Below, piece after piece: positions 26,301 through 61,423 of a stretch of 64,000 nucleotides of DNA; the stretch's first letter is position 1, and the number at the start of each line of letters is the position of its first letter. A program made the position numbers and the translations under genes. This stretch comes from Antennarius striatus (Eukaryota > Chordata > Actinopteri > Lophiiformes > Antennariidae), in contig NC_090778.1 in NCBI RefSeq assembly GCF_040054535.1, positions 11,997,501 through 12,061,500 of the forward strand. The letters run 5' to 3'. The notes under the pieces were generated by a model. The model saw only the letters and a list, made by a program, of their open reading frames with translations, had not been told where the DNA came from and ran no database searches.

Positions 26301-28550
26301 ATTACACCTCATCTTGTGTCATTTTTGAAATATTACAAGAATTATTTGAGCATTTAGGGGCTGCTAGTAACTATTATTTTCACTGTAACTATTATTTCCA
26401 CTATCCTTTAAATTACTATTTTTCCCAGCACCTTTTGATAGTTCAGGAGATACAATCTACAAAAAGGGAGAAATATGAACTCATATATCAAAGAGTCCAA
26501 ATATCTTGTTTTGTGAGACCAAAACAGACACGATCACAATTTTAAGCATTTAAGTAGTTGTTCTCTGCTGAGTGTTGATCAAAAGAAACATGTGATCCAG
26601 GGAACCATAGACAGGCTAGATGAAGTTGCCTAATCTGTTTTTGAGACGGGCTTTTTGCTTGACCTTTCACCTAAAGACTGACATGTGTCTGAATCGCCTG
26701 TATTTAAAAACCTTTAATGAAAGACCTTCATTACAGTTATTCAAACATCATTTATCTTCCAGGAAAAACCTTGATCTGTAACAAAAATGGTGTGAGTGAC
26801 AAAGTAGGGAGTTATCAGCGAAATCAAAATATTGAGTTGATCAAGGGTGAAGGGCACAAAAGACAGTCAGATAATCTGCACCCAGCCTTAGTCAAATAAC
26901 TGACTAAGGCTGGGTTAACAGCTTTTTTAAAATGGTCAGAAGAAAAAAGCTATAATCAAAAAAAGAAAATTCTTGATCCAGTGCCTCCAGTGTTGAAGAA
27001 TCAGCATTTCAGCTGTGAGTCATTTCCACATTTTGAGATAAAACATACTGTGTTCTACCAAAACGACCTTGTTCTCGATCGCTTGAGTCTCCGTCACGCT
27101 ACCTTGAAAAGTCTCCTCTTACACACAGGGTGGAGAGGAGTGGCAGGAGTAGGTGTTTCTTTCTACTTTCTACCTCCCTTCTCTGAGCAAAGCTACTCAT
27201 GATAGGCCGACGTGAGAAAAACAAGGCGAAAATCATGCCCTCCAGGCTAAGAATCTGTCAAATTCCTCACGGAGCTTTTGCAGTCTCCTCCCTTTACACC
27301 CAGAGGCGGCGTCCTGCAAGGAGCTTTTAACTTGTCCCAAACAACTCGGCAAAATATCATTATTAAGAAGGAGCCAAATTCAAGCATCAGATTAGACGTT
27401 TGGAGTCAATTCAGCATGTCTGGCCCACCTAATTCATCAGGAAGACTGCAGCGAAAGAGCTTTAGTCTTGCTGTCAAGCCATGTAATCGTCAGCAGCATC
27501 AGAATTAGGTCCCCTGCTGACGAACTTACACCAACACTTTTAATTTGGGATACTGCTGTGATTTGGAATGAGAAAAAAATTTGGCCCGGACCTTAATTTG
27601 ATACAAGGAGGAGTAAAATCTGTGTTAGTAATGAAGCTGTTTGCCAGTGACATACTTGGACAAATAACAAGCTGAGCTTTTCTTCTACTTATTAAATAAA
27701 TTACACTTGTTAAGAAGCAGGGGGATTATGAATTGCCCAGAGGATCCAACATGGATGTCCGTTGACTGGAATGTGAAGTATTCTTAAAGCGTCTGCAGGG
27801 TGGGACAGAATGTTTGTTGACTGGTTACCCCCACAGTAAAAAGCAGAAACGATCAAGTTCAGTTTGACTCACTGATGACCCACCAATCCTCAGGAAAAAA
27901 AGCAGTTTTATATGTTCTTTTCATTTCTCTAATTTCAAATCAAAACGGATAAGAAGTGATCCTCAGTACGCTCCAGCACAAATATAACAAACGAAAATAT
28001 TGCAGGAGTGTGAGTGTGGATTTGCTTTTAATCAGAATTCATGGAAAGAACTCGAAAAGCACATCAACGTTAATTAAAACTAATTTGGACAACAAGATCA
28101 GCACATATAGGACAGATCTACACCCTCTATTCTCAGACCTGTGATCTATCTCTGCAAGACAGACTCTATAAGGACAAATGAGCCAAACAAACACACTTTA
28201 TCTGCTCATTGATTCTTTTTTCTACACCATGTGAAACTTGCTGTAAGTCCACGACTCTTCTGTCCACTCTCTCCCTTCCCCCCATTCCCCAAGACTCGGA
28301 CACCTCCCCCCTACCCGCCATGTCCCTGCAGCCTGACATTTCTACTGTTATCACCCCCTAGAACAGACAACCTTTAAGAAGTCTGGATGTAGTGAAAGAG
28401 GACACAAAGGTACTGTAGTTGGTGCGAGAGAAGAGGATGCAGAAGACAGGGTTAGATGGAGGCAACTGATTCACTGTGGTGACCCCTGAAGGGAAAAGCT
28501 GGAAGGAGAAGAAGCTATGACAGCAGTACCAACAGAACCGGGCCCCCGGA

Positions 28551-41548: not shown

Positions 41549-42807
41549 TTAAGAACAAGGGAGATGTGCAGAGTTGTGGCAACTACAGAGGAATAAATCT
41601 GATGAGCCATACAATGAAGTTATGGGAGAGAGTAGTGGAAGCTAGACTAAGGGCAGAAGTGAGCATTTGTGAGCAGCAGTATGGTTTCATGCCGAAAAAG
41701 AGTACTACAGATGCAGTATATGCTTTGAGGATGTTGATAGAGAAGTACAGAGAAGGCCAGAGGGAGCTGCATTGTGTTTTTGTAGATATGGAGAAAGCTT
41801 ATGACAGGGTGCCCAGAGAGGAACTGTGGTATTGTATGAGGAAGTCTGGAGTGGCAGAGAAGTATGTTAGAGCGGTGCAGCACATGTATGAGGACTGTAA
41901 GACAGTGGTGAGGTGTGCTGTAGGTGTGACAGAGGAGTTCAAGGTGGAGGTGGGACTGCATCAGGGATCAGCTCTGAGCCCCTTCTTTTTCGCTATGGTG
42001 ATGGACAGGCTGACAGACGAGGTTAGACAGGAATCTCCATGGACTATGATGTTTGCAGATGACATTGTGATCTGTAGTGAGAGCAGAGAACAGGTGGAGG
42101 AGAAGCTAGAGAGGTGGAGGTTTGTCCTGGAAAGGAGAGGAATGAAGGTTAGCCGCAGTAAGACAGAGTACATGTGTGTGAATGAGAGGGACCCAAGTGG
42201 AAGAGTGAGGTTACAGGGAGAAGAGATCAAGAAGGTGGAGGATTTTAAGTACTTAGGGTCAACAGTCCAGAGCAATGGAGAGTGTGGAAAAGAGGTGAAG
42301 AAGCGTGTACAGGCGGGATGGAATGGGTGGAGGAAAGTGTCAGGTGTGATGTGTGATAGAAGAGTTTCAGCTAAAATGAAAGGAAAGGTGTACAAAACTG
42401 TGGTGAGACCAGCGATGTTGTTTGGTCTAGAGACAGTGTCACTGAGGAAAAGACAGGAGACAGAGCTGGAGGTAGCAGAGATGAAGATGCTGAGGTTCTC
42501 TCTGGGAGTGACCAGGAAGGATAGGATCAGGAATGAGTACATCAGAGGGACAGCACATGTTAGAGGTTTTGGAGATAAAGGCAGAGAGGCCAGACTGAGA
42601 GGGTTTGGACATGTCAAGAGGAGAGATAGTGAATATATTGGTAGAAGGATGCTGAGTTTTGAACTGCCAGGCAGGAGGCCTAGAGGAAGACCAAAGAGGA
42701 GGTTTATGGATGTAATGAGGGAAGACATGAAGGTAGTTGGTGTGAGAGAAGAGGATTCAAAGGACAGGGCTAGATGGAGGCAACTGATTCGCTGTGGCGA
42801 CCCCTGA
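41549..42807 (+). CDS. RTE reverse transcriptase fragment (retrotransposon ORF)
   Basis: About 419 codons of RNA-dependent DNA polymerase from a LINE of the RTE clade, without the apurinic-type endonuclease. The frame runs in from genomic flank at 41527, so the first eight or so codons of the longest open frame are not element sequence. The GKP-like PKKSTTDAV motif, the DMEKAYD catalytic aspartate, and FADD in place of YADD are visible. The same protein, heavily broken, is encoded on the minus strand at 57218-53470. Confidence 0.9.
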
Positions 42808-42833
42808 AGGGAAAAGCCGAAAGGAAAAGAAGA
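41549..42833 (+). mobile_element. Recent 5'-truncated RTE-clade LINE with open RT frame
   Basis: The insertion is bounded by a perfect 16-bp target-site duplication, AGGTTTCCCCAAGTCA at 41533-41548 and 42834-42849. It encodes one uninterrupted frame from the reverse-transcriptase fingers to the stop at 42805-42807. Motifs are YGFMPKKSTTDAV, DMEKAYDRVPRE, LHQGSALSPFFFA and the FADD catalytic box, followed by a C-terminal region ending in RWRQLIRCGDP. The upstream endonuclease is missing because of 5' truncation. It ends with the family tail GACCCCTGAAGGGAAAAG and a GA-rich end. The exact duplication and clean frame point to a young insertion. It is probably not mobile by itself. Confidence 0.93.
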
Positions 42834-42849
42834 AGGTTTCCCCAAGTCA

Positions 42850-50300: not shown

Positions 50301-53300
50301 CCATCATCTGGGTGCTGCTCTCCATCTGCGACCTTAAAATATTTATCACTTTCTCACAGTCATCCAGCTTATGCTTCAGTGTCTCTCCATCTGCATGTAG
50401 GGTCTGGCATCTCCTCTCAGCCTCTTCCAACATGGTAAGATGCTAGAAAAATAAAAGAGCTTGAAGTTGTATGAACCTTGAAAACAGACAGGTAACAACA
50501 TTATATTTAATCTAAACATAATATGTCATGTATGATCCCTTCTAGAAGGGTTTACACACACACCCTATACTTAAATACCTGCTGAGCTTTTTGCTGCCTC
50601 AGCTGGACTTCCTGACATTTTTCCTCTAGGAGTTCTTTGAATTTTCTGCCCTCCTGGGTCCTCTGTTCCAACAGAATTTGTAGGGAGGTTTTCTCCTCCA
50701 CACCTCTGTAGAGATGCTCTTCTGCCACCTCCAGCCTTCCTCTCAGGGCCTTTAGCTCCTCTTTGAGCTCACACTGCTGCCGTTTATCACAACTCTGGGA
50801 GGATAAAGAACATTTTGACAATGTCAAGAAAATTGAACAAAAGCCAAGGACCAAATGTGCGATTTACTTTTCTGATAAGTCACCAAATTTTTTGCCCAAT
50901 GACGCAGATGCCCCTACTGGTAATGTAATGCACAGTAGTGAGGAAAGGTTGTATCATTTCAGTAATTAAAGCAGCAAACTCTATCCCGCAACAAGCACTT
51001 CCATCTGAGTCAGAAAACCCTGTCTGATTCCTCACGCCAGTGCTTTCAGCTCTTCACCCAGCAGAGTACACACCACCAGCTCTTGACTTTACTCCACCCT
51101 GAACAAGAGGCCCCTCAATAAATCCAAACACAATAACCTAGGAGCCTGAGATGGAAGTCTTCGATGTTAAACATCCAATTTCATATTGCCAATGAAAAGT
51201 AACTGAAGATACTTTGGGAAAAATACTGAAAGATTATGTTTTTGATGTTTCGATTGTGCTATTTTTTGTCATGTTTGTGGATTTCCTATTTCACACTGAG
51301 GTTGGATGGGAAGGCTCGACTCTCAGTCTCTACTCTCATCCCCAAAGTGTTCTATTGGGTTGCAGTCAGGACTCTGTGCAGGCCAGTCAAGTTCATTCGC
51401 ACTAGACTCTGTCTTGTATATCTTTATGGACCTTGCTTTGTGCACTAGTGCACAGTCATGTTGGAACAGGAAGCGGCTAGCTTCAAACTGTTCCCACAAA
51501 GTTGGGAGCAAGGAATTGTCCAAAATGTCTTGGTTATGCAGAAGCAATTAGAATTCCCTTCACTGGAACTAAGGGACTAAGCTCAGCTCCTGAAAAACAA
51601 TCACAGACCATAAACACAGACCATATGTAAGATAAATGTTGGTACTCAACAGACATAACCTTCTTATATGTTTTCATGTATAAAGTCGAGTTTCAAAATT
51701 TTCAAATAATGACCTTTTGCGAACCTGCATCTGTATAAATACATGCATCTGTACGATATGAAGGACAAGTGACAAAATGCCGGATTCACAACTATTTATT
51801 TTGCCCAACCTTAAATTGATCAAGCTGAGCGTGAAAATCTGCTGCCTGTTGTGAAGATTTCTCCTTTTCTCTACGGGCATCCACCAGCTGGGACTGAACC
51901 TGAATGAGCTGCTGCTCCAGGCAGCCAACCTGCATCACAAATCAATCACAAATCAATCAAATGAAAAGAGATCTTTGAATATTCAGTCAAATTTGGAAAT
52001 ATCTGCTATAATAGTAAGTCAAGAATTCATCATATTCATAATGATGTTTGGAATTTTAGATTACCCTGACAAGGCTACTTGTTGACCATTGTGTTTATCT
52101 AAATTTTACGCCACTTTGGTTTTATTGTTCTACACATGTAGTGACATGGATAAATATTAACTTTTACCAACCCCAGTGTATCAGTGTGTACAAGTGCAAA
52201 ATTACTCATAACATAATTACATTCTTCTTTATCTTTATGCCTGAAGAAGGTTGACACAAGTTCACTGACCTGACACTGATGATGTAACGTCTGTCTCTCT
52301 GCAAGTTTACTGGACATATAAATTAGAGAAATTTTTTGACATGTAAATCCCCCTAAAAATCAAAATGCAACAATTTCTAATCATTTAGTAAGTGTCTGTT
52401 TATATGATCTGAAAAGTTAAACATGCACAAAACTATTTAGGAAGTAGGAACTCTTACTTGAGAAACTCCAGCTTGATACCTAAGCTGACGCTGTTATTTT
52501 TTGAGGAACACAGTTTGTCAGTCAACATTGCCATCTCCTGGCCAAGACTTGCAATCAAGTCTTCCATTCTAGAAGTGGAAACTTCTTAGTGTCAATAGGT
52601 TAGACATAGTGATCTATTTTCCGCATTTTAGTCAGTTGTTCTGTTTTAATGTCACTTAATAAGACATGAAAAATGGCACCATGATTACTGAAAAGGACGA
52701 TAAACATAAAATGAACACACTGACAAGCAAGAACTTCAACAGACTGTAAATACGCTTGTGGTTCATTGCGTGCAACACCCACTTGATTTACTAGTTAGGA
52801 AATACTCGATAACTGAGGGAGGTGACAGATGAGACCTCATGACATTTTATTCATACAGTCACATACTTTTTAAGCTGTGGCTTTTACGGAATGAGAGAAA
52901 ATCTGCCCCAAAAAAGGCAAAAAAAGTGTAATGTATGAAATACATAGAAACGCTGAACGGATACAGAAACATCTTTTGAAATGATTAATTTCAGTTTATA
53001 TTAATGTGATGCTCAATAAAAAATATGAATGATTTAGTGTTTAAATAAATACTAGCTAACAAGTCCAAGATGATATCTCCAACGTCATTTTTATAAGGAG
53101 TTTCCATCATTTACAAAATAATATAGCATCATCATATAGTAGCAAATAGTCAAAAAGCAAACCAGTGAATACCTTGCATTTGTGCTTGCAAAATAGCTAA
53201 TTTTTTCACAATATTTGCTGCGAGACATTCTGCCAACTAACAGTTGAAGCAAACATCAGCTAATCATTGAAGCTGTATTACATTACCTGTCTTTTAGTTC

Positions 53301-56300
53301 ATTGAACCCACAGTATTCCTCATTCCTCTGATGTTCTGCTGACTGCTGTAAAACAGACAAAATGAAAATCAGGCCTAATTGTCTGAAAAAGATAAATCTA
53401 AGTATACAATATTTTGAACTTGATTGGTAAATGTTTCTACTCTTCTTCTTCTCCTTTCGGCTTTTCCGTTCAGGGGTCGCCACAGCGAATCAGTTGCCTC
53501 CATCTAACCCTGTTTTCTGCATCCTCTTCTCTCACACCAACTACCTTCATGTCCTTTTTCGCTACATCCATAAACCTCCTCTTTGGTCTTCCTCTAGGCC
53601 TCCTGCTTGGCAGTTCAAAACTCAGCATCCTTCTACCAATATATTCACTATCTCCTCTGGACATGTCCAAACCATCTCAGTCTGGCCTATCTGACTTTAT
53701 CTCCAAAACCTCTAACATGTCCTGTCCCTCTGATGTACTCATTCCTGATCTTATCCATCCTTGTCACTCCCAAAGAGAACCTCAGCATCTTCATCTCTGC
53801 TACCTCCAGCTCTGTCTCCTGTCTTTTGCTCAGTGACACTAGATCAAACAACATCACTTGTCTCACCAGTTTTGTACACCTTTCCTAGCTGAAAGGTGTA
53901 CAAAACTAGCTGAAACTCTTCTATCACACAAGACCAGAAGAACTCAGCTGGAGGCAGAAACCACTGAGTACATCTACAGAAAAGGCACAAGACAGATGGG
54001 TGAGGAATCTATCAGACAGAGAACTCACCCAACCAGAGAAGGATGTCCTCACCAAAGGATTGAACTTCGCTATCACCCCACAGCATGTACCGGTAGTGGA
54101 CCTCATTACCGCCACGGAATCAGCAATCAAAAAGAATAACCTTTCCGCAACAGAAGCAGAGGGACTAAGGCTAAAAGTAACAGCAGCCCTTTCTGAAGCG
54201 AAGGTCCCCCTTCCAACCAACGGAAGGCAGTGACGACGCTGAGTAAGGACCAAAACATCACCATCCTTCCAGCAGACAAAGGAAGATGCACGGTAATCCT
54301 CAACACAACGGATTACCATAGCAAGGTTATGTCCCTACTCAGCAACAGCACGACCTATGAGACCCTGAAGCGCGACCCAACCAGCAGCTACAAAAAGAAG
54401 GTTGTGGACTGCCTACAGGAGCTACAGAAGGAGGAAACTTTAAACCGCCTGCTCTACTTTCGCCTGTACCCTGGGGAGGCTATACCATGCATATATTGCG
54501 TCCCCAAAATTCATAAAGAAGGAACCCCACTCAGACCCATCGTCAGCAGCATCAATTCTGTCACTTAGAAAATTGCCAAGCATGTTGCAACCATCTTGGC
54601 CCTGCTAGTGGGTAACAACCCCTATCATATAGAAAATTCCATGGACTTTGTGGAAAAGGTGAGAGGACTGAGATTGGATACAGATGGGACCATGGTATCC
54701 TACGATGTCACCTCCCTGTTCACATGTGTCCCCACAACGGAGGCTGTGGAAGCGGTGAGACAACGGCTTTCACAGGTCACCACCCTCAGCGACAGGACAA
54801 ACCTCAACCCTGACCAGATCTGCAAACTTTTGGACCTCTGCCTCAGCACAACTTACTTCCAGTACAGAGGGAACTTCTATAGGCAGAAACACGGATGTGC
54901 CATGGGCTCGCCGGTATCTCCTATCGTGGCCAATTTGTACATGGAAGAGGTGGAACACAAGGCCCTTACCTCGTTCAACGGAACACCACCAAGCCAATGG
55001 TTCCGGTACGTGGACGACACATGGGTTAAGGTAAAAATCCACGAGGTGCAACCTTTCACCGAACACATCAACTCGGTGGACAGCAACATCAAGTTTACCA
55101 GAGAGGATGTAAAGGACAACAGTTTGCCCATTTTGGATTGCAAGGTCGGCATAAAAGATGACAGAAGTCTGTATGTTGGGGTATATAGGACACCAACACA
55201 CACGGACCACCCACCACCCACTGGAGCACAAGCTGGGCGTCATCAGGACCCTGCAAGACAGGGCTGATAAACTACCAACCAGTACTCAAGACCAGGTGAA
55301 AGAACACCAACACCTGAAAGGGGCACTAAAAATGTGTGGATATCCTGACTGGACCTTCGTGAAAGCTCACACAAGATCCAGAAAGGAGAACAACCCAGTG
55401 AGGACGGAAGAGAGCAAGCGCAATGGTATAGTGATCCCGTATGTGTCTGGAGTGTCTGAAAAGCTGAGGAGGATCTTTAACAAACACAAGGTCCCTGTGT
55501 ATTTTAAGCCGGGAAACACCCTCCAACAACGACTGGTCCACCCAAAAGACCCCACACCACACAGTCAGAAGAGTAATCTGGTGTATGCAGTTAAATGCAG
55601 CGAGGAATGCTCAGATGTCTACATAGGGGAAACCAAACAACAACTACACAGACGTATGGCTCAACACAGAAGAGCCAACACATCAGGACAGGACACGGCA
55701 GTCTTCCTTCACCTCAAGGAAGTGGGACACTCATTTCGGACAGATTTTCAGATCCTGGACAGGGAAGTTAAATGGTTTGAGAGAGGAGTGAAAGAGGCCA
55801 TCCACGTCAAAGTGGAGAAGCCATCTCTGAATAGAGGGGGTGGTCTGTGACATCACCTTTCTCTCATTTATAATCATGTCCTTTCGAAACTCCCAAAAAG
55901 ATTGTCTCAGCGGATTGACCCAGGTGATGGGTCTCATGCTAATGACCCTCATTAGCATACAATGGTGTAACTCACATCTTCACGACCCCCTTTGACACCC
56001 CCACCAACAATCATTGAAGAGCCAGACGGGTTTAATGACGGTCGTTGGAATGTGAAAAGCATTGACCACACCCCACAGGGTTTATAAGCTGGGAAATTAT
56101 CAGCCATTCTCTGAACTGAAGAAGTCTCTTGGATGAGAGACGAAACGTCTTCAAGAACTTTATTAACGTCCAGTGGATTGACTCAACAGCTTTTGGATAA
56201 CCATGACCTGGATGACTGAGAACCTACACAGACATCACACATCACATCTGACACTTTTCTCCAACCATTCTACCCTGCCCGTACATGCTTCTTCACCTCT

Positions 56301-59300
56301 TTTCCACACTCTACATTGCTCTGGACTGTTGACCCTAAGTACTTAAAATCCCCCACATTCTTGATCTCTTCTCCGTGTAACCTCACTCTTCCACTTGGGT
56401 CCCTTTTATTCACACACATGTACTCTGTCTTACTGCGGCTAACCTTCATTCCTCTCCGTTCCAGGACAAACCTCCACCTCTCTAGCTTCTCCTCCACCTG
56501 TTCCCTGCTCTCACTACAGATCACAATGTCATCTGCAAACATCATAGTCCATGAAGATTCCTGTCTAACCTCGTCTGTCAGCCTGTGCATCGCCATAGCG
56601 AACAAGAAAGGGCTCAGAGCTGATCCCTGATACAGTCCCACCTCCACCTTGAACTCCTCTGTCACACCTACAGCACGTCACCACTGTCTTAAAGTCCTCA
56701 TACATGTCCTGCACTACTCTAAAATACTTCTCTGCCACTCCAGACTTCCTCATACAAAATCGCAGTTTCTCTATGGGCACTCTTGTCATAACCTTTCTCC
56801 ATTAGTACAAAGACAAAACTCAGCTCCCTCTGGCCTTCTCTGTACTTCTCTATCAACATCCTCAAAGCAAATACTGAATCTGTAGTACTCTTTTTTGGCA
56901 TGAAACCATACTGCAGCTCACAAATGCTCACTTCTGCCCTTAGTCTAGCTTCAACTACTCTTTCCCATAACTAATTGTATGGCTCATCAGCTTTATTCCT
57001 CTGTAGTTGCCACGGTTCTATACATCTCCCTTGTTTTTAAAAATGGGCACCAGCACATTTCTCCTCCATTCCTCAGGCATCTTCTCACTATCTAAGATCC
57101 TGTTGAACAACCCAGTCAGAAACTCTGCTGCCACTTCTCCTAGACACTTCCATACCTCCAAAGGTATATCAGGACCGAGTGCCTTTTCACTCTTCATTCT
57201 CGTCAATGCCCTCCTCACTTCATCCTGACAAATCTTTGCTACTTACTGGTCCACAACAGCCACCTCTTCTAGTCTTTGTTCTCTCTCATTTCCTCGTTCA
57301 TCAAGTCTTCAAAGTACTCTTTCCATCTTCCCATCACAGTACTGGCACCTGTCAATAGACTTCCATCCCTATACTTAAATCACCCTGACCTACTGCACAG
57401 CCTTCCCATCTCTGTCTCTCTGTCTTGCCAACCTGTGTAGATCAGTCTCTCTCGTTTGGCCTTCGCTATCTCTAGTTTCACCTTACGCTGCATCTCCCTG
57501 TACTCCTGTCTACTCTCCTCAGTGCTCTCAGTGTCCCACTTCTTTTTAGCTAACCTCTTTCTCTGTATACACTCCTGTACCTCCACATTCCACCACCAAG
57601 TCTCATTATCTACTTTCCTTCCAGATGACACACCAAGTACTCTCCTACCTGTCTCCTTGATCACATTAGCTGATTAGTTGTCTGGAAAAACCTCTTGACC
57701 ACCCAGAGCCTGTCTTAATTCCTTCCTAAAAGCCATGCAACATTCTAACCTTTTTCAGCTTCTACCAATTTTTCCTCTGCTCTGCCTTTGCCCTCTTCAT
57801 TTTCCTCACCACCAGAGTCATCCTACACACCACCACCCTATCCTGTTTGGCCACACTCTCACCTACCACTACTTTGCAATCACTGATCCCCTTCAGATTA
57901 CACCGTCTACACAAGATGTAGTCTACCTGTGTGCCCCTACTTCCATTCTTATAGGTCACCTTATGTTCCTGCCTCTTCTGGAAGAAAGTATTCACTTTAA
58001 CCGTTTCCATCCTTTTTGCAAAGTCAACCACCATCTGTCCTTCTGTATTCCTCTCCTGGATACCAAACCTGCCCATCACCTCCTCATCACCTGTTTCCTG
58101 CACTAACATTTCCATTGAAGTCTGCACCAATGACAAATCTCTCACTTCTAGGTATACTCTGCATCATGTCATCAAAGTCCAACCAGAATTTCTCCTTCTC
58201 CTCCAGCTCACATCCTACCTGTGCAGCATACCCACTAACAACATTGAACATCACATCTTCAGTTTCTAGCTTCAGACTCATCAATCTGACACTCTTTTTA
58301 CCTCCAAGACATTCCTAACAAACTCCTCCTTCAAGATAACTCCTACTACATTTATCTTCTTATCTACACCATGATAGAATAACTTGAACCCTGTTCCTAA
58401 ATTTCTAACCTTGCTATCTTTCCACCTGGTCTCCTGTACACACAATAGGTCTACCTTCGTCCTCTGCATCATGTCAACCAACTCTCTAACTTTTCCTGTC
58501 ATAGTTCCAACATTCAACGTCCCAACTCTTCAGTCCTACACTCTTGGTGTTCCTCTTCTCTCTCTTCCTACAAACACACTTTCCTCCTCTACTTCTTCGA
58601 CCAACAGTAGTCCAATTTCCACCGGCACCCTGTAGGTGAACAGCACCTATGGCAGTCGTCAACCCGGGCCTCAACCAATGTGGTATGGAATTAATAGATT
58701 TGATTTGCATGTTTGATTTGGCAAAAGTTTTACGTTGGATGCCCTTCCTGACACAACACTGTATTTATCCAGGCTTGGGACCGGCACAATAAGACTCTGG
58801 CTTGCGCCCTCTTGTGGCTACATTTGGTAAATATTTCTACAACTTACCAAAAAATGTTCCTGCTGCAGCCTGTCAGTGTCATTGTCAAATTGCTCAGTTA
58901 ATTGAGCTGGGAATACTTGTCTTGAGTTAATGGCAACTTTAGGGCTGGTGATGATACTATCCCCATATTGTTTATCATGAGACGACAGTGAAGAACCTAT
59001 TTCCTTCACACTTTGTTCCAGTGTTTTCATTCTACTGTTAAGTGTCAACACTTGATCCTCAGTCTCCTGCAGCTTCTGGTCCTTGAGTCTTTTGATATTT
59101 TGGAGCTCCTCCAACATACACAGCATCTTTTCCATCTGATCAAGGTGTTTCCATGAATCACTCAATCTACAAGCAAAATCTATAGGTCAAAATATTTTCA
59201 AACACTTTCTTTACACAGGTACATTTGTACTCATATGGTCACCTAAGATCAGACACAATGTCCTTCTCCGTCTGGACCTGATGCAACTCAGTTTGCAGAT

Positions 59301-61423
59301 TCATGATGGCTTTGTCAGAGTTGATCAAATCTTGTTTAGGTTGGTCATGTGTCTGTGTTGGAGAGGGAAACATTTAATTGTCATTCAGACAACATCAAAA
59401 CAATATGACTATGACTATAATAAATGCATGAACCTTATTGACCTGAAAGCCAGAAAGCTGTTGCAGACAGTCATCTATTGCTGTTCCAAACACCTCCTCT
59501 TCAGGACAACTGCAATCTCTTTGAGTCACTTCCCGGTCTGAACTATTCAAATCATAGACTGAGGGTTGAGTTGCTACCTGCTGAAGGATTGGAACAATGG
59601 TGGGATCCACGGGTGAGTCATCTGTTAAACAAGCAAAAGAAATTCAAAATACTCATCAATGTTGCAGAGTTTTAGGGTTGCCAGAAAATTCCTTTCTATT
59701 GGCTTTTTCTCATCTAAAACACTTGAAATAATAGTTTTCTCTCCTATGCATGTTTCTCCTACACATCTGAAAACTGATATTTACATAAAATTTCTTCCAA
59801 AATGAAAGCTTAGAAGAACCATCATCTTTCCCATATCATTGGGCTTTCAGGCGTTACACCATAATGTGGATGTTGTGAAAAGTGAAACTTGTTACAATCT
59901 TGTTCCACAACAGTTTTCATCTTTGCGGCTCCAGCTACGTAAACAAATTGCTGGGTGACAATGATAATACTCACAGTCATTCAATCTGTGGTTGTGGCAG
60001 CTTTGTCCAGGGGGCTTGTGGATATCATATGTGTAACCAAACTTCTCCATTGTTAGTTTGGTAGCATTGTCCACTTCATTCTGAAGCCTCTGGGTTTCTC
60101 TGGTCCGCCGATCGAGCTCTTCACTGCAAAAACAATTGAAAGCAAGCCAGTCACAGACTGCAACATCCTGCGACACCCCTGAATTCAAAATTTTACCCTG
60201 ACCTACTTTCATAATGGTCGCAGCAATGAATTCTATATTGTACTATCCAGTATTTGGCTTTTCACCAAAGGTTGAGGTCATGATCACATTTTTTGTACCT
60301 CTGGCTCCCTGAAAATGTTGCTTTTTGTTTTGTGATTATATCTCATCAGGTTTCAGAGATGTGTACCTAAAAAGATATAGACGTGAAAATTGACCTTGAC
60401 TTAGTTTTTCAAGGTCAAAGGTTGTGATCTAATTTTCATCCCTTTGCCTCCCTGAATATAACACCTTTTGTTTCGTCTTTCTATCTTATCCGATTCCTGA
60501 GATTCATTCATTCATTTTCACTGCCCTCTTTAGCAGGGCATTTCACTTCATCCGTTTACGTGGGGAGCTGGAGTCTAACCCAGCTGTCTTGGGGCGTGAG
60601 GCCGGGGGAAACTCTGGATGTGACGCCAGTGCACCGCGGAGCCACACAAAGACAGACAAACATGCACCAACACACCCACTCCTATGGACTGGACAATTTT
60701 TAAAGGCCAATTAACCTGAAGCAAATGTTGTTTGGAGGTGGGAGGAAGCCAGAGAACCCGGAAAGAACCCACAGAGACACGGGGAGAACATGCAAACTCT
60801 GCACAGAGCGGGACTCGAACCCGGACCGCCTTGTTGTACGGCGACAGCGCTACCCACTGCACCACCGTGTCTGACATATGTGCAAAACAATGTACAAAAG
60901 TTGAAATTTGACCTTAACCTGGTTTTCTCAGGGTCATTATCTCATTTTCATCCCGTTTAACACCCGAGTAATGTGATTTCTCTTTCATCTTTCTATCTGC
61001 AACGGTTGTGAAGATATTTGGTGGACGGACGAACACACTGACAAACACTGACAATTACAATACATCACCGCTTTGCCGAATGTAAAAATGACAGACTATG
61101 GTTCATGCTTGTATTGCAGCACTACTGTCTTCAATTGAACATCAAATGGGAAAGGAGTGAGGGTACATTACTGGAGTCAGGTGACAAGATTTGCATTTTT
61201 AGTCCACATATGTGTGAAATGAAAGCAACTGAATGGTTTTACAGGGTTTACTTTTACCTCAATTCATCCAGAGTCAGTCTGTTAAATCTCAGCTCACTGC
61301 TCTCTGCAAGCAAAGTTACACAAAGACTCCAAGTTAGCGCAAACTGGCTGGGGAGATACTTCGTAAACGCAGCTCATTGTAACTTACCATTTGTTCCAGC
61401 TTCTGTCTGTGTTCGTTTTTCAT
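44301..61423 (-). CDS. ccdc158: Coiled-coil domain-containing protein 158
   Basis: Long coiled-coil protein of poorly known function. Twenty-three coding exons join in frame: 61423-61388, 61301-61258, 60123-59975, 59621-59443, 59352-59243, 59166-58848, 53345-53287, 52568-52458, 52309-52270, 51929-51810, 50794-50579, 50442-50161, 50086-49918, 49293-49141, 48797-48685, 48120-47962, 47610-47518, 47298-47176, 46810-46635, 45679-45617, 45420-45356, 44910-44861, 44399-44301. The product is 975 residues against about 1113 in human. Glu/Gln/Leu-rich heptads dominate. Diagnostic matches to human CCDC158 are ADCQDFIQLQEQ..RMKLRHALDLKEIQG, MQEKITARREQIDCLQGKIQ and DDCEKVINILRSQME. The last four exons have no recognised human match and are joined by frame and splice sites only. 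The start uses the first ATG of the first frame-compatible exon. Exon 2 needs the second of two tandem acceptors. Confidence 0.85.
51310..51615 (-). mobile_element. Tc1-family transposase remnant
   Basis: On the minus strand the fragment encodes FLFQHDCALVHKA and DWPAQSPDCNPIEHFGDE, matching the C-terminal DDE region of Tc1 transposases (usual form QHDCAPVHKA and DWPAQSPDLNPIEHLWDEL). It is short, with damaged residues and no inverted repeats recognised. It lies in a ccdc158 intron between 50794 and 51810. Confidence 0.8.
53424..53440. repeat. Target-site duplication, left copy, of the RTE insertion
   Basis: TTGGTAAATGTTTCTAC here pairs with TTGGTAAATATTTCTAC at 58824-58840, 16 of 17 positions. 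The two copies bracket the whole RTE plus Penelope block. Confidence 0.88.
53868..53907. repeat. 17-bp perfect inverted repeat with 6-nt loop inside the RTE
   Basis: AGTTTTGTACACCTTTC (53868-53884), CTAGCT, then its exact reverse complement (53891-53907). The intact copy at 42380-42400 has only one arm here, so the second arm is a new templated insertion in this copy. Confidence 0.93.
53934..55850 (+). pseudogene. Broken Penelope-like reverse transcriptase / GIY-YIG protein
   Basis: Three frames are needed to read it. Frame 1 runs 53934-54233, a shift occurs near 54220-54230, then 54230-55205 carries a single in-frame TAG at 54566-54568 just after SSINSVT. A deletion and shift near 55205 follows the YRTPTHTD motif, and the last part runs to 55850. 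The deletion removes a few residues usually found before HHPLEHKLG. The RT catalytic YVDD and the GIY-YIG VYIGET motifs are intact, but the protein cannot be made as one chain. The amino terminus is missing because of 5' truncation. Confidence 0.88.
56110..56165 (+). other. Hammerhead-ribozyme-like segment at the Penelope end
   Basis: The tail contains GGATGAG, then AGACGAAACGTCT, which can fold into a short hairpin with a GAAAC element. Penelope-like elements are known to carry hammerhead ribozymes in terminal repeats, but here the CTGATGA core is written TTGGATGA, with an extra base, so activity is doubtful. Confidence 0.25.
58824..58840. repeat. Target-site duplication, right copy, of the RTE insertion
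   Basis: TTGGTAAATATTTCTAC matches 53424-53440 except at one base. It lies 8 nt inside the intron from the ccdc158 exon ending at 58848. Confidence 0.88.
60140..61075. repeat. Dispersed repeat, same family as 19709-20138, split by a SINE
   Basis: Shared blocks include CAGTCACAGACT..CAACATCC (60149-60170), GACCTTGACTTAGTTTTTC, and GAAATTTGACCTT through CATCACCGCTTTG (60903-61074). The second part repeats blocks already seen in the first (ATCTNATTTTCATCCC), which suggests two adjacent copies or an internal duplication. It lies in a ccdc158 intron between 60123 and 61258. Confidence 0.6.
60510..60873 (-). mobile_element. tRNA-derived SINE (V-SINE-like)
   Basis: On the minus strand CACGGTGGTGCAGTGGGTAG (A box) and GGTCCGGGTTCGAGTCCCGC (B box) form a tRNA-like head at 60873-60800. 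A conserved body follows (CATGTTCTCCCCGTGTCTCTG, GGCTTCCTCCCACC). The arrangement is that of vertebrate tRNA-derived SINEs with a conserved central region. It is inserted in the repeat at 60140-61075. Confidence 0.65.

Follow-up and report, generated by a model that had tools for sequence, protein, structure and literature searches.

Nested RTE-type and Penelope-like elements in an intron of a probable ccdc158 gene of Antennarius striatus, with a damaged twister-like motif near the splice donor

RESULTS

The host gene and its enlarged intron

We analyzed a 64,000-nucleotide stretch of the Antennarius striatus genome (assembly GCF_040054535.1, contig NC_090778.1, positions 11,997,501 to 12,061,500; hereafter the window, in whose coordinates all positions are given), in which one intron of a minus-strand gene, probably ccdc158, contains an RTE-type long interspersed nuclear element (LINE) that is itself interrupted by a Penelope-like element. 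Five exons of this gene, a to e (60123-59975, 59621-59443, 59352-59243, 59166-58848, and 53345-53287), form a single open frame and are separated by GT-AG introns of 353, 90, 76, and 5502 bp, so that the enlarged intron (53346..58847, minus strand) is preceded by introns of 90 and 76 bp. The upstream exon d (58848..59166, minus strand), recognized by its open frame and splice sites, ends in ...CATTTTTTG|gtaagt, and the frame crosses the d/e junction in phase 0. The downstream exon e (53287..53345, minus strand) is 59 bp long, and its acceptor is an in-frame NAGNAG (CAGCAG, 53343-53348), at which one glutamine could be gained or lost. A further exon, f (53229-53173), is doubtful, because the intron it implies would be 57 bp long, which is under the usual minimum.

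The initial annotation had named the host gene ccdc158. In support, the protein from joined exons a-e plus g matched the Pfam family CCDC158 (PF15921; E 4.5e-5, 22.0 bits), as did another protein, encoded by exons farther downstream (22.7 bits), and the two matched segments are collinear; both scored under the curated cut-off of 27, and the name is therefore probable rather than certain.

An RTE-type LINE inserted close to the splice donor

The outer insert, nested element included, occupies 53441..58823 on the minus strand, that is, in the sense orientation of the gene; its 5' end is full length, and its 3' end carries a short GAA-type tail. It is bracketed by direct repeats on the donor side (58824..58840, minus strand, intron +8 to +24) and the acceptor side (53424..53440, minus strand), which are identical at 16 of 17 positions and lie 5383 bp apart. 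As other copies of the element begin with AATGTAGCC, base 58824 may be the element's own first base, in which case the duplication measures 16 rather than 17 bp. Once the Penelope-like insert and its 8-bp duplication are removed, 3072 bp remain. From five pieces submitted to family scanning, one matched a reverse transcriptase (RVT_1, within 56270-56677 on the minus strand; E 4e-17, 63 bits, cut-off 29.6), one an endonuclease slightly under threshold (Exo_endo_phos, E 6e-5, 23.4 bits, cut-off 24.5), and three had no family. LINEs of the RTE clade are about 3 kb long, end in a short repeat tail without poly(A), and produce target-site duplications of variable length; the length, GAA-type tail, and 16- to 17-bp duplication found here agree with that description. 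The outer element probably belongs to the RTE clade, a name that draws on sequence features and on the initial annotation.

To place the element's 5' end, we used 30 genomic loci selected by a stretch downstream of it (40 of 2903 candidates having been scored); one of these (L063) is the window copy itself, so that counts refer to the 29 others, and another (L084) recurs as L014 in the motif search described below. In 20 of the 29, alignment starts at the same first base as in the window copy, and the base preceding that start varies (T in 8, G in 5, C in 5, A in 2). These two facts together indicate that the 5' end is the family's own. A scan of viral contigs for RTE 5' ends gave 0 matches. 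A duplication pattern, built with a spacing unlike that of the actual duplication, matched 2 other places in the same genome and is uninformative.

Several observations concern other RTE sequences. A second copy in the window (41549-42835, plus strand) is 5' truncated and 89-93% identical to the intronic one, 201-281 is an old RTE 5' piece (75% identical) with remnants of the same twister-like stretch, and 28384-28514 holds an RTE 3' end only, with a CA repeat close behind. Outside the window, L003 contains two RTE 5' ends that face each other across about 730 bp. The intronic copy includes a local 17-bp perfect palindrome (53868-53907), where, in place of a few bases found in the other RTE copy, it has a longer stretch of the neighboring sequence in inverted form, as would be expected from template switching. 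This palindrome also caused the microRNA matches at 53859-53917, each of which was far under its gathering score and was rejected. Elsewhere inside the host gene, a minus-strand open frame at 51323-51547 resembles by eye the end of a Tc1/mariner transposase.

A Penelope-like element nested in the LINE

The inner insert is a Penelope-like element of 2303 bp (53931..56233, plus strand), antisense to the gene and with interrupted frames. On both sides it is flanked by ATCACACA (left, 53923..53930; right, 56234..56241; both plus strand), a perfect 8-bp duplication. The RTE copy at 41549-42835 aligns straight over the insertion point, with ATCACACA present once and no insert, and this comparison sets both the limits of the element (53931-56233) and the length of its duplication. 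Two of three pieces scanned had a family: RVT_1 (E 2e-8, 34.6 bits, cut-off 29.6) and, marginally, T5orf172 (E 9e-4, 20.2 bits, cut-off 20), which we take to be a family of the GIY-YIG type. The arrangement that marks Penelope-like elements, with a GIY-YIG domain after the reverse transcriptase, was thus found, its GIY-YIG part being marginal.

We also sampled 30 loci, taken from 40 scored matches among 2334 candidates with a query that covered the element's 3' end, one of them being the window. The 3' end at 56233 was reproduced exactly in 23 of the 29 other copies and to within 5 bp in the remaining 6. RTE sequence flanks 7 of the 29; L042, a strongly 5'-truncated copy, is clearly nested in RTE, and five copies (L036, L041, L051, L059, and L061) are joined to an inverted piece of the element. 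A hammerhead ribozyme is reported for many Penelope-like elements, although not universally. We rejected such a ribozyme for this copy, as no Rfam hammerhead matched up to E 5 in 52800-59500.

That the repeats arose by chance, in a long ancestral intron holding unrelated element fragments, can draw on the single mismatch in the RTE duplication. However, for one given pair of sites, chance agreement at 16 or more of 17 positions has a probability of ~6e-9, and the two duplications coincide with element termini that recur in other copies; we regard this explanation as scarcely credible.

Order of events

Subtracting the insert (5383 bp) and one copy of the duplication (17 bp) from the 5502-bp intron leaves 102 bp, which corresponds to 54-fold growth. 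The starting state would thus have been a minimal teleost intron, into which a full-length sense RTE-type LINE would have inserted by target-primed reverse transcription at intron +8 to +24, duplicating 16-17 bp; a Penelope-like element would later have entered the 3' part of the LINE in the opposite orientation, duplicating 8 bp. Nesting alone fixes this order, and the branch lengths concur. More specifically, the terminal branch of the window copy, over 1 kb, was 0.068 for RTE (20 sequences) and 0.028 for Penelope (12 sequences), and over shorter stretches 0.046 (30 sequences) and 0.028 (29 sequences), respectively, the window being included in each set; these values fit a Penelope-like element younger than the LINE. 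The history is supported by the two duplications, by the uninterrupted RTE copy, by termini that other copies have in common with these elements, and by the relative branch lengths. The initial annotation had described an intron of about 102 bp enlarged about 50-fold, a 17-bp duplication with one mismatch around 53441-58823, a second one of about 8 bp around the Penelope-like element, and an order fixed by nesting, and each of these points was borne out.

Splicing of the enlarged intron

Both splice sites are intact, the donor reading TTG|GTAAGT and the acceptor TTTTACAG|CAG, even though the LINE lies as near the donor as had been proposed. Intron positions +1 to +23 and the final 95 bases are unaffected by the insertion, and the latter contain the acceptor together with a pyrimidine tract and a CTGAT that resembles a branch site. 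Among four donor-like patterns sought within the intron, only AGGTAAG was present, once. Recognition of the donor by U1 requires only the first few bases of an intron, and growth from 102 to 5502 bp would be expected to favor exon definition over intron definition. The exons flanking this intron measure 319 and 59 bp, and splice recognition here would probably run across them rather than across the intron. Since the splicing signals all lie outside the inserts, the intron is most likely still spliced.

The initial annotation had further presented the locus as a case of remarkable splicing tolerance. We find this overstated, both because the insertion spared the first 23 bases of the intron and its final 95 and because there is teleost precedent: a survey of 172 vertebrate genomes (PMC9438311) reports two length classes of teleost introns, one short, near 76 bp, and one long, and names as an instance of length change a short intron that gained an element. 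The enlargement described here is ordinary in kind.

Read together, these features make it highly probable that an intron of 102 bp received first an RTE-type LINE, bearing the twister-like motif described below and now damaged, and then a Penelope-like element within it, and that the intron is probably still spliced. Four points weigh on the other side. The history is read from the sequence of one genome; the original size was obtained by subtraction; the branch lengths vary with the copies sampled, which were picked for similarity to the window; and, read in the sense direction, the intron includes AATAAA at three places and ATTAAA at one, where premature 3'-end formation may occur. The last of these, along with the shortness of exon e and the 57-bp intron preceding the doubtful exon f, would also suit a decaying locus in which the transcript terminates within the LINE or lacks exon e. 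We judge such a departure from the proposed splicing unlikely: the frame is open over exons a-e and into g with GT-AG sites throughout, and dropping the 59-bp exon would shift it.

A twister-like motif at the 5' end of the LINE

At the 5' end of the LINE, 58752..58829 (minus strand) matched the Rfam twister-P1 family (RF03160) with 34.3 bits against a gathering cut-off of 67.2 (E 1.2e-4 in a search of the region, 1.2e-3 over the whole window); its core is damaged. A genome search with the same model gave 62 scored places from 36,109 candidates, the best with 59.6 bits (E 1.3e-10), and none of the 62 exceeded the gathering cut-off. All 30 loci fetched from these matches overlap RTE 5' sequence. 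In 28 of them homology begins at window base 58823 (query base 1), and these 28 contain 30 RTE ends, in each of which an A precedes the element-start ATG or a variant of it. The loci are not independent, having been picked by motif score and including two (L012 and L013) with the same flank. Mean column identity among the aligned twister copies was 95%.

The first bases of the motif, which form the 5' strand of helix P1, are host DNA, and the element would hence carry a P1-less form of the twister. Helix P1 is described as dispensable for twister cleavage in PMC6154101. A cut of the U-A type is predicted at the element's first A, here at intron +23/+24; on arrival, the LINE would have brought with it a twister-type self-cleaving motif whose predicted cleavage site coincides with the element's start. 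Motifs of this kind are already known: a 2020 review (PMC7761336) mentions, as work in preparation, a truncated but competent twister at the 5' ends of RTE elements, and twister variants in non-LTR (long terminal repeat) retrotransposons of Schistosoma mansoni have been attributed to Liu et al. (2021), as cited in PMC11620745. Among the papers listed by our literature searches, none dealt with twister-bearing RTE copies and host splicing. While the structure and history given by the initial annotation were right, it had missed this motif, overstated the surprise of splicing, and given as settled a gene name that is only probable.

State of the ribozyme core

In the window copy, the GAGGG segment that follows the second strand of P2 is missing, which makes ribozyme activity unlikely; the motif is most likely inactive now. 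To judge how usual such a loss is, we counted core segments in the 29 other RTE copies introduced above, which were chosen regardless of the motif and among which truncated copies were scored as losses. GAGGG was kept in 19, GTCCCAAGCC in 21, the 5' segment in 16, and all three in 10, so that the conserved core is present in the family. Under stricter patterns, in which neighboring bases were also required, the corresponding counts were 15, 16, 16, and 9 of 29. Among the 20 copies that align from base 1, GAGGG was present in 14 and all three segments in 10. Loss of GAGGG, absent from 10 of the 29, is thus a minority state, yet a common one.

These counts bear on whether the ribozyme mattered to the allele. 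An intact sense twister at intron +24 could have cut the pre-mRNA and been costly at first, the allele being kept because its ribozyme was already, or soon became, broken. The location of every fetched motif locus at an RTE 5' end would suit this account, as would the loss here of a segment retained in 14 of the 20 copies with a complete 5' start, and in PMC10919898, Fong et al. (2009) are cited for the finding that fast intronic ribozymes reduce splicing whereas slow ones do not. Core loss is nevertheless common without selection, only 10 of the 29 copies retaining all three segments, and we think it improbable that such a cost shaped this allele. With 10 of 29 other copies lacking GAGGG, ordinary decay is enough to explain the broken core, and the idea that it is special to this intron is unsupported.

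The reported effect of fast intronic ribozymes makes a more general filter conceivable, in which splicing would act against sense intronic copies of twister-bearing RTE elements such that, near a donor, only those with broken cores persist, with this locus as a survivor. We hold this to be quite doubtful; a single broken copy speaks neither for nor against it.

DISCUSSION

The locus offers a clean example of the passage from a minimal fish intron to a long one in two readable steps that spared the splicing signals. Growth by RTE and Penelope insertion is an ordinary route of intron lengthening in fish, and a worn self-cutting RNA beside the splice site is a small twist on it. The motif raises the question of whether self-cleaving LINE 5' ends restrict the intronic positions and orientations in which such elements can survive.

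Compared with known systems, the starting intron falls into the same short class, near 76 bp, from which teleost short-to-long transitions are described in PMC9438311; here, by contrast, a single locus is at issue, and its inserts can still be dissected. The motif occupies the same 5' position as the truncated twister of the RTE superfamily, which PMC7761336 proposes to free element RNA from upstream transcripts, whereas the copy described here is an intronic one, oriented with its host gene and with a broken core. The Schistosoma mansoni variants are, by the citing description in PMC11620745, likewise of the twister type and likewise in a non-LTR element, though in another host. With Penelope-like elements the inner insert shares a reverse transcriptase plus a weak match of the GIY-YIG type, 5'-truncated copies, and some inverted fragments; a hammerhead is reported for such elements in PMC7761336, whereas none was matched in the region searched here. 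Finally, the Cpeb3 ribozyme (PMC10919898) is another motif of the self-cleaving type inside a spliceosomal intron, but it is HDV-like (hepatitis delta virus), conserved, and active, whereas the motif described here is twister-like, of transposon origin, and damaged.

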